Part shown: one piece after another, positions 32,394 through 35,596 of the stretch
Position numbering within the stretch: the first letter of the stretch is position 1
Layout of the letters: each line of letters begins with the position of its first letter
Assembly: GCA_013215875.1 (NCBI GenBank)
Contig: JABSQK010000307.1
Coordinates: 1 to 40,311, forward strand
Source: Lentisphaeria bacterium
GTDB taxonomy: Bacteria; Verrucomicrobiota; Lentisphaeria; JABSQK01
DNA length: 40,311 nucleotides
Reading direction: 5' to 3'
The notes under the pieces: model-generated
Seen by the model: the letters and a program-made list of their open reading frames with translations, nothing else
The model's database searches: none
What the model was told of the DNA's origin: nothing
Program-made: the position numbers and the translations under genes

Positions 32394-32428
32394 TTGCACT
32401 TTCACAACTTTCACTTAATATTGAAAGT
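32394..32428 (+). promoter_or_regulatory. Candidate promoter with overlapping operator dyad upstream of the GbsR-like gene
   Basis: TTGCAC (32394-32399) N16 TAATAT (32416-32421). Dyad ACTTTCA (32407-32413) N8 TGAAAGT (32422-32428). An extra ACTTTCA half-site lies at 32398-32404. Confidence 0.6.
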
Positions 32429-32464
32429 ACAGGAACTATAACAAGCTGAATAAAGAGGAAGACC

Positions 32465-32977
32465 ATGTCAGATAAATTGAAAGATGCCCAGGACGAATTC
32501 TTAAACCACTGGGGCGTGGTTGGCCCGCAATGGGGGATTAATCGTACCATGGCCCAAGTACATGCCTTATTAATTATCTCAGTCGACCCAATTTCAACAG
32601 ATGACATCATGGAGGAACTGGCTATCAGCCGGGGCAATGCTCATAAAAATCTAAAAGAATTGCAGAACTGGGGGCTTATTCGAACAATCATAAAGCGCGG
32701 CGACCGCAAGGAATACTTCGAGGCAGAAAAAGATGTGCTCAAAATGTTTAAGCTTGTTATCAAGGAGCGTCGTCGTCGCGAATTGGACCCAGCCATAGAG
32801 GTGGTCACAGCCTGCGCAGAAAAAACTGTCGGAATGAAAGGCAAAGAAGCGGAACTCTTTCATAAACAAATGAAGGATATAAGTGAACTGCTTGGCACAG
32901 GTGCAAAAGTGCTCGATAAATTTTCTCAATCGGATAAAAATCTCGTTCTCACTCTACTACTAAAAACATTGAAATAG
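32465..32977 (+). CDS. GbsR/MarR-family transcriptional regulator
   Basis: 170 aa. NHWGVVGPQWGINRTMAQVHALLIISVDPISTDDIMEELAISRGNAHKNLKELQNWGLIRTIIKRGDRKEYFEAEKDVLKMF matches the GbsR wHTH. Confidence 0.92.
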   Translation: MSDKLKDAQDEFLNHWGVVGPQWGINRTMAQVHALLIISVDPISTDDIMEELAISRGNAHKNLKELQNWGLIRTIIKRGDRKEYFEAEKDVLKMFKLVIKERRRRELDPAIEVVTACAEKTVGMKGKEAELFHKQMKDISELLGTGAKVLDKFSQSDKNLVLTLLLKTLK

Positions 32978-33008
32978 GAAACACACAAACTAAAAAAATT
33001 TCCGTACA

Positions 33009-33030
33009 ACTTTCACTATTTACTGAAAAT
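33009..33030 (+). promoter_or_regulatory. Second copy of the candidate GbsR operator upstream of the downstream operon
   Basis: ACTTTCA (33009-33015) N8 TGAAAAT (33024-33030). Same arms and spacing as the 32407-32428 dyad. Confidence 0.55.
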
Positions 33031-33059
33031 ACAATAAAATAAAAAAGGAGTAATACGAA

Positions 33060-33461
33060 ATGAACAACTACATAATGATCACCTACAGTTTGTACATTGT
33101 AATCAGCGTCGGGATAACCATTTGGGTGGGGCGCACGCTCTACAAAAACGGCCGGATATTTTTGGTGGATAGCTATGCGGGAAATATTGAGCTGGCAGAT
33201 TCTGTAAATCACCTCTTGGTGGTGGGATTCTACTTAATTAATATTGGCTTTGTTAGCCTGGCCTTAAAAAGTGGTTTGCAGCCGACGCAGAATTACGAAG
33301 TCTTCGAGGTTTTGAGCGGCAAAGTAGGAAAGGTTTTACTTGTTCTTGGTGCAATGCATTTTATGAATTTAATAATCTTTAGCAAAATGCGCAAACGTGC
33401 GATGCTATTCAAAGAACCGCCACCAGTGCCTGCAGATAGAGCTATAAAAGTAGAAGGATAA
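33060..33461 (+). CDS. Small membrane protein, unknown function
   Basis: 133 aa, hydrophobic segments, aaaaaggag RBS. Confidence 0.8.
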   Translation: MNNYIMITYSLYIVISVGITIWVGRTLYKNGRIFLVDSYAGNIELADSVNHLLVVGFYLINIGFVSLALKSGLQPTQNYEVFEVLSGKVGKVLLVLGAMHFMNLIIFSKMRKRAMLFKEPPPVPADRAIKVEG

Positions 33462-33466
33462 ATGAC

Positions 33467-33904
33467 ATGAAATTACTCTATGTGCTATACGATAGAAATT
33501 GTGAGTTGTGCCGGCGCTGCAAAAACTGGCTGGCCAAGCAACCGAAGTATATCGATATGATTTTTATTGCACAGCAGAGCAATCAAGTAAAAATCATAAT
33601 GCCGGATTTGGTCAATGACTTGAGCCTCGATGATTTAATTCTAGTCAGCGATACGGGTTTGGTTTACAAAGGAAAAAAGGCTTGGATCATGTGCATGTAT
33701 GCATTGAAAAACTACCGAGAATGGTCCTTGCTCTTCGCCAGGCCTGGTTTTGATGTATTGACCAGAGCAGTCGTGCATCAGATCAGTTCAAACAGAAAAA
33801 GTATTTCCGGGGCATTATTGAAATTGAATGCGAGTAACTGTGAAACGGGAAATTGTGATATTCACAGTAATGACGTGAACAAAAACAGTAGGAGAGGATT
33901 ATGA
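33467..33904 (+). CDS. DCC-family thiol-disulfide oxidoreductase-like protein (DUF393)
   Basis: 145 aa. LLYVLYDRNCELCRRCKNWLAKQPKYIDMIFIAQ. Confidence 0.85.
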   Translation: MKLLYVLYDRNCELCRRCKNWLAKQPKYIDMIFIAQQSNQVKIIMPDLVNDLSLDDLILVSDTGLVYKGKKAWIMCMYALKNYREWSLLFARPGFDVLTRAVVHQISSNRKSISGALLKLNASNCETGNCDIHSNDVNKNSRRGL

Positions 33905-34869
33905 AAAAAATAGCCATTGCGGGTGGAAGCGGATACATGGGAAAGCTGCTTATTCATTATTTGATGGGCAGGGGCCATCAGCTGATTGTATTGAGCAGAA
34001 AGGACTTTGAAAATCAGAAAAATCTGGAGTTTGTTAAATGGGATGGGCGGACTCATGGAGCCTGGCATGCGGCTTTGGAAGATGCCGATGTCTTAATTAA
34101 TCTCTGCGGGCAATCTGTAAATTGCCGTTACAATGAAAAAAATAAGCAGGCAATTTATCAATCCCGCTTGAAGAGTACACAGCTTTTAGGCGAAGCACTT
34201 GAGCGACTGGATTGTGGTCCTGAGCTGTGGATGAATGCCAGTTCTGCGACGATCTACAGAAGCAGTAAAGTCGAAATGGATGAAGAGGCACAACATGGAG
34301 AAGGATTTTCAGTTGAAGTTTGTGAGCAATGGGAAAGCCGTTTTTACAAATACAAAAAAACCGGTGCCCGGCAAATTGCCTTGCGAATGGCCATGGTGTT
34401 CGATACGGCTGCAGGTGGCCCATATGATCATATGAAAGAGGCCGTACAACTTGGTTTTGGCAAGGGAATCGGCGATGGAAATCAATATGTCAGCTGGATT
34501 CACGGCCATGATTTATGCAGGGCGATTGACTTTATGCTCATGCACAAGGAGCTTGAGGGAAATATAAATATTTCATCTCCACAGCCTATACCAAATGCAG
34601 ATTTTATGAAGATTATCGCCGATAGCCAAAAGCCCCTATTTCGTATGCGTTGTCCGAATTGGTTGTTAAGCCTTGGGGTAATTGTGAAGCAAACGGAAAA
34701 AGAACTCGTGCTGAAGAGTCGTCGGGTTGTTCCAAAACGATTATTGGATGCCGGCTTCCATTTTCATTATGCAGATTTTGTTGATGCGGAAAAAGAACTT
34801 TCGAGCAGAACAAAATCTGCAACAAATAGCGAAAATGTATATTGCAATATCGATCGCTGGGAGAGGTAA
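33901..34869 (+). CDS. TIGR01777-family NAD(P)-dependent epimerase (SDR39U1-like)
   Basis: 322 aa. IAIAGGSGYMGKLLIHYLMGRGHQLIVLSR, DADVLINLCGQSVNCRYNEKNKQAIYQSRLKSTQLLGEAL, YVSWIHGHDLCRAIDFML. 4-nt overlap with the upstream gene. Confidence 0.93.
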   Translation: MKKIAIAGGSGYMGKLLIHYLMGRGHQLIVLSRKDFENQKNLEFVKWDGRTHGAWHAALEDADVLINLCGQSVNCRYNEKNKQAIYQSRLKSTQLLGEALERLDCGPELWMNASSATIYRSSKVEMDEEAQHGEGFSVEVCEQWESRFYKYKKTGARQIALRMAMVFDTAAGGPYDHMKEAVQLGFGKGIGDGNQYVSWIHGHDLCRAIDFMLMHKELEGNINISSPQPIPNADFMKIIADSQKPLFRMRCPNWLLSLGVIVKQTEKELVLKSRRVVPKRLLDAGFHFHYADFVDAEKELSSRTKSATNSENVYCNIDRWER

Positions 34870-34870
34870 A

Positions 34871-35596
34871 TTGCAATCTAAGCCGGTATTTTTAGAAGCA
34901 GACTGGTCGTGGCTTATCATGCTTAACTACGAGATCGACCCTGAGAAACTTTTGCCACTTGTACCGTTTGGCACAGAGCTCGACTTTTATAATGGCACGT
35001 GTTATATCAGCATTGTTGGATTCTGGTTTTCAAATACACGGGTAAAAAAGATCGGCTTTCCATTCCATCGCAATTTTGAGGAACTTAATTTGCGTTTTTA
35101 TGTGCGCCGAAAATCAGCCGGTGGCTGGCGCAGGGGAGTGGTATTTGTAAAAGAACTGGTCCCGAAATTTGCCATCGCCTTTATTGCCAGAACACTATAC
35201 AATGAAAATTATATATCACTGCCAATGGCCCACGAGCATATTTTTGAAAATAAAATTCCGCAAAAAATTTCCTATTCCTGGAAGCTAAATAATCATTGGA
35301 ATCATTTGTCTGTTAGCCCTGAAGTAGAAGAAAGATCATTTATTTCAAATAGCGAACAAGAGTTTATCACTGAACACTATTGGGGATATTCTGCCAAAAA
35401 TGAAAATTCCTCAATCGAATATGAAGTGCAACATCCCGCTTGGACATATCGATAAATAGATAAATTTGAGTTGCAATGCAATATGAAAGAACTCTACGGA
35501 GAATCATTCGGCCCTTATATAAAGGGTGACCCCAGTACTGCATATCTCTGTGAAGGGTCAAGAGTAACAGTTCATAACGGTATAAAAATGAGTTAA
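34871..35596 (+). pseudogene. DUF2071 (YqjF-like) gene interrupted by an in-frame TAA at 35453-35455
   Basis: TTG start at 34871 with gagagg RBS. KPVFLEADWSWLIMLNYEIDPEKLLPLVPFGTELDFYNGTCYISIVGF...IEYEVQHPAWTYR*IDKFELQCNMKELYGESFGPYIKGDPSTAYLCEGSRVTVHNGIKMS*. The peptide after the stop resembles the DUF2071 C-terminus. Confidence 0.65.

Follow-up and report, generated by a model that had tools for sequence, protein, structure and literature searches.

A gene for a GbsR-type MarR-family regulator (gbsR) lies in this stretch of Lentisphaeria DNA between two inverted repeats that have the same arms and spacer length, one ahead of gbsR itself and one ahead of the operon that follows. This arrangement raises the question of whether the two dyads are sites through which the regulator controls both its own gene and its neighbors, as a reading made from the sequence alone had proposed. 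Throughout, the window is the whole 40,311-nucleotide stretch that was analyzed.

The dyads and the regulator between them

The features at and around the regulator gene are as follows.

32398..32405, + strand: extra direct half-site, ACTTTCAC, read directly
32407..32429, + strand: candidate operator 1, ACTTTCACTTAATATTGAAAGTA, with its TTTCA-N8-TGAAA core at 32409-32426; best matrix match in the window and among the assembly's exact cores
32465..32977, + strand: GbsR-type MarR-family regulator, 170 aa; Pfam MarR_2 (PF12802), 33.6 bits (cutoff, 27)
33009..33031, + strand: candidate operator 2, ACTTTCACTATTTACTGAAAATA, with its core at 33011-33028; second-best matrix match

Read directly, the stretch ahead of gbsR is ACAACTTTCACTTAATATTGAAAGTAC (32404-32430), and that ahead of the gene at 33060 is ACAACTTTCACTATTTACTGAAAATAC (33006-33032). 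The arms ACTTTCA/TGAAA[G/A]T and the 8-nt spacer that the sequence-only reading had described at both dyads are present as it gave them, as is the additional direct half-site that it had placed upstream of the first dyad. Exact matches to ACTTTCA-N8-TGAAARTA were limited to these two dyads, both in the window and in the whole 5.49-Mb host assembly, so the host has few copies of the full motif; when up to two mismatches were allowed, the assembly gave 66 matches, which is near the control's 52. A weight matrix trained only on Bacteroidota gbsR sites, with the window sites left out, ranked the dyads first and second in the window at 23.3 and 20.3 bits, with the next match at 6.4 bits. The host assembly was searched by pattern, and matrix scores cover the window and the assembly's 30 exact TTTCA-N8-TGAAA cores. 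The window dyads were the top two of these 30 cores, followed by a core within a gene at 13.2 bits, and no further exact-core site that would point to a wider host regulon scored near the window pair. The best other intergenic core, TTTCAACATAAATTGAAA (L218:1220), lies 5' of an ArsR-like gene and is a weak match at 11.4 bits.

The regulator has a MarR-like winged helix-turn-helix (predicted model pLDDT, 87.7). Its closest solved relative by sequence is MJ0223 (1ku9), the structural template of the GbsR family (phmmer, 5e-14), and MJ0223 was also the best Foldseek match to its predicted fold (1.1e-9; TM score of 0.64 by query and 0.71 by target). Its orthologues from four named genomes of Bacteroidota are 42 to 46% identical to it. 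A quick tree of 45 rows, of which one was cydAB linked and none was CydE itself, placed it together with GbsR-type proteins of Bacteroidota and two same-class relatives; the cydAB-linked relative (Microvirga) stood apart, and the separating branches had 100% SH-aLRT support. Since the window protein falls outside the Bacteroidota group, where support was only 84, a recent transfer from Bacteroidota is not supported. Identity with the choline sensor CudC was also rejected, as the CudC model scored 50.3 bits, far under its cutoff of 218, and so was a conserved cysteine-based sensing mechanism, given that cysteine is absent from 61 of 65 GbsR proteins.

Conservation and distribution of the dyad

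Conservation was assessed at 64 Bacteroidota gbsR loci, 4 in named genomes and 60 in genomes that belong to the same class as one of those 4. An exact TTTCA-N8-TGAAA lay within 150 bp 5' of gbsR in 55 of the 64 loci (56 of 65 with the window included); the other 9 had none within this distance of the gbsR start that was chosen. Markov shuffles of the gbsR upstream regions yielded a mean of 0.06 loci with an exact dyad and never more than 1, and a spacer of 8 was the only favored length in these regions, other spacers giving 0 or 1 exact dyads. Because orthologues share ancestry, the 55 loci do not represent 55 independent events. A second exact core followed the gbsR stop codon within 150 nt in 37 of the 55 loci and within 600 nt in 41, and the two-operator layout in those loci is the same as in the window. 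Phylogenetic footprinting thus shows conservation of the dyad at both positions, ahead of the orthologous regulator genes and ahead of the operon downstream. Core density in the Bacteroidota loci was 5.7/kb upstream of gbsR and 3.8/kb after its stop, compared with 0.023/kb elsewhere.

The motif also tracks the presence of gbsR among relatives. When 44 Bacteroidota genomes were scanned with a strict form of the motif, which the window dyads do not match because their spacers begin with C, 13 of the 25 gbsR-bearing genomes and none of the 19 gbsR-less genomes gave a match, and a comparison of coordinates placed all 14 distinct sites at gbsR. Across 241 genomes from the phylum of the host, a near-identical pattern found only two sites, each immediately 5' of a gbsR homologue (E values of 1.2e-62 and 1.5e-64); one of these homologues is followed by a DCC-like gene. 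Since the dyad pair recurs at the regulator's relatives and almost nowhere else in the genomes, the dyads are, as judged from sequence comparison, very probably the binding sites by which the GbsR-type regulator acts on its own gene and on the operon that follows.

Related dyads were seen in other contexts. In the same-class relatives G022 and G016, dyads of the TTTCA-N8-TGAAA type in TTAT/ATAA-like flanks (L083:3481, L084:3428, L085:3357, and L087:3206) precede the gene for a fatty-acid desaturase, that for a sigma-70-family factor, and, in both genomes, that for an unnamed protein, and a wider regulon is possible in these two genomes. In G016 (L093:4405), gbsR and a TIGR01777 SDR gene are divergent and have one common dyad with one mismatch (TTTCA-N8-CGAAA). 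Distant GbsR-type genes carry TTTC-N10-GAAA palindromes, such as TTTCTGTCATGACAGAAA, in which the outer arms and spacing are kept; they occur at about 3460-3500 in L203 and L204 and upstream of gbsR in L034 and L036. TTTC-N10-GAAA is a possible family-wide operator frame.

Promoter geometry and mode of control

In 45 of the 55 Bacteroidota loci, the TTG in the right arm is spaced 18 to 20 bp from TAnnTTT/TAnnnTTG, relative to ~0.5 loci expected per spacing. The known -33/-7 promoter of Bacteroidota has this geometry. The operator in Bacteroidota therefore seems to form part of the promoter, and since the right arm falls on the -33 element, a dimer bound there would be expected to block the promoter. 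Two putative promoters overlap the dyads in the window.

32394..32421, + strand: putative gbsR promoter, TTGCAC (32394-32399)-N16-TAATAT (32416-32421), read directly; its -10 element is inside the dyad
33011..33040, + strand: putative operon promoter, TTTCAC (33011-33016)-N18-TAAAAT (33035-33040), read directly; it overlaps candidate operator 2

The hexamers and spacings of these promoters, which the sequence-only reading had proposed, are present as read, but they are weak, as a sigma-70 consensus scan gave window promoter matches that were not above chance. Operator 1 would cover the -10 element and operator 2 the -35 element of the respective proposed promoter. No terminator was found between gbsR and the following operon, and transcription of gbsR may continue into the operon.

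We consider it highly likely that the dyads are operators of the regulator encoded between them and that its dimer represses both its own promoter and the operon until a signal releases the two. A dimer of the regulator's winged helix-turn-helix domains would bind TTTCA-N8-TGAAA; at operator 1 it would cover the gbsR promoter and cause autorepression, and at operator 2 it would cover and repress the promoter of the membrane protein-DCC-TIGR01777-DUF2071 operon. Some signal would then free both operators, so that regulator and operon would rise together. Here, we infer that the window protein binds the dyads, that its effect is repressive, and that there is a signal, along with the kind of signal it is. 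Given the Bacteroidota promoter geometry and the parallels with CydE, CioR, and the Microvirga locus described below, promoter occlusion would be the likeliest mechanism. The autoregulation and operon control proposed earlier are thus supported, at the level of sequence, by the conservation of the dyads, the rarity of the motif, its tracking of gbsR, and the CydE footprint on the same dyad.

The same regulator could instead use these operators as an activator, or switch between both modes, and activation is possible from sites near -35. This seems improbable to us, however, because the right arm in Bacteroidota sits on the -33 box, where a bound dimer would occlude polymerase, and because CydE and CioR, relatives that have been characterized, are repressors of their own operons. 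That the dyads belong to another regulator, which controls gbsR and its neighbors by happenstance, is more doubtful still: the strict motif is missing from the gbsR-less genomes and elsewhere occurs only at gbsR, the motif-first scan arrived at gbsR both times, and this dyad is also the one that CydE binds. With arms that are inverted repeats in AT-rich DNA, the dyads could in principle reflect RNA hairpins or chance palindromes, but we give this reading almost no weight. At gbsR in Bacteroidota, the dyad precedes the -7 element, which places it outside the expected transcript, and chance (~0.06 loci) does not account for arms and a spacer length that are fixed over 55 loci; spacer specificity and the genome-wide counts rule out chance or AT-rich palindromes. 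Repression by the regulator encoded between the dyads thus remains the preferred reading.

The linked operon and known GbsR-type systems

The operon downstream of operator 2 consists of four genes.

33060..33461, + strand: small membrane protein, not assigned to any Pfam family; 21 of 64 Bacteroidota loci have relatives close to gbsR
33467..33904, + strand: DCC-type thiol-disulfide oxidoreductase (PF04134), 46.3 bits (cutoff, 27.8)
33901..34869, + strand: TIGR01777-family SDR oxidoreductase, 241.7 bits (cutoff, 207.35); relatives in 23 of 64 loci
34871..35455, + strand: DUF2071 protein with a TTG start, PF09844, 174.5 bits (cutoff, 27); relatives in 13 of 64 loci

With DUF423, these are the neighbors of gbsR in the window. 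The small membrane protein gave a poor structure model (pLDDT, 59). Cluster c1, which was typed as DCC by its N-terminal motif and whose representative has no Pfam match, was present in 20 of the 64 loci. At least one of the four families (membrane protein, DCC, TIGR01777, and DUF2071) occurs within ~6 kb of gbsR in 44 of the 64 Bacteroidota loci. A cyclopropane-synthase-like methyltransferase, desaturases, and a Luciferase-domain protein are further recurrent neighbors. The same-class GbsR homologues at L034, L035, and L036 adjoin a methyltransferase resembling the one that follows gbsR in some Bacteroidota. Judging from these neighbors, our guess is that the gbsR-linked module has a cell-envelope or lipid role. 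We lean slightly toward the view that this GbsR branch, in Bacteroidota and the window's phylum, controls a so far unassigned cell-envelope- or lipid-related module through paired operators in response to a signal other than choline; the module would comprise the small membrane protein, DCC, TIGR01777 SDR, and DUF2071 proteins, joined in some species by a desaturase or cyclopropane-synthase-like methyltransferase. In the literature searched on DUF2071, TIGR01777, and GbsR together, this association is not described.

The closest parallel in operator sequence is CydE of Alishewanella sp. WH16-1, a GbsR-type repressor of cydAB in an autoregulated operon (PMC6096048). Its DNase-footprinted site 1, TATTTCAGAAATTTCTGAAAGTTCA, has the same TTTCA-N8-TGAAA core as the window dyads and a GTTCA extension that is also found in many Bacteroidota sites; CydE also bound a second, unlike site (PMC6096048). 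The same dyad, GATATTTCAGAAAATTCTGAAATATC, is carried by the gbsR-cydAB locus of Microvirga. An operator in common with CydE suggests that one recognition code extends over a large part of the GbsR family. The targets nevertheless differ, since CydE controls cytochrome bd, whereas the window operon encodes the membrane protein, DCC, SDR, and DUF2071 proteins without cydAB. CioR of Chromobacterium violaceum directly represses its own operon, and its target is likewise cytochrome bd, unlike the window operon; the portion of the text searched gave no operator motif for CioR (PMC11837568). The choline and glycine betaine regulators GbsR, OpcR, OpuAR, and CudC (PMC6207618) have their structural family and MJ0223-like fold in common with the window regulator. 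In contrast, no osmoprotectant synthesis or uptake genes, the neighbors expected of a GbsR, OpuAR, or OpcR regulator, adjoin the window gbsR.

For the Bacteroidetes GbsR-type proteins, a 2018 survey reported no consistent gene neighborhood and no established role (PMC6207618, Figure 2), whereas a recurrent neighborhood and an operator were found here. This branch, previously without a target, thereby gains a defined operator, an arrangement of two operators, and a target operon that recurs, and the operator and target operon make the function and signal of Bacteroidetes GbsR directly testable.
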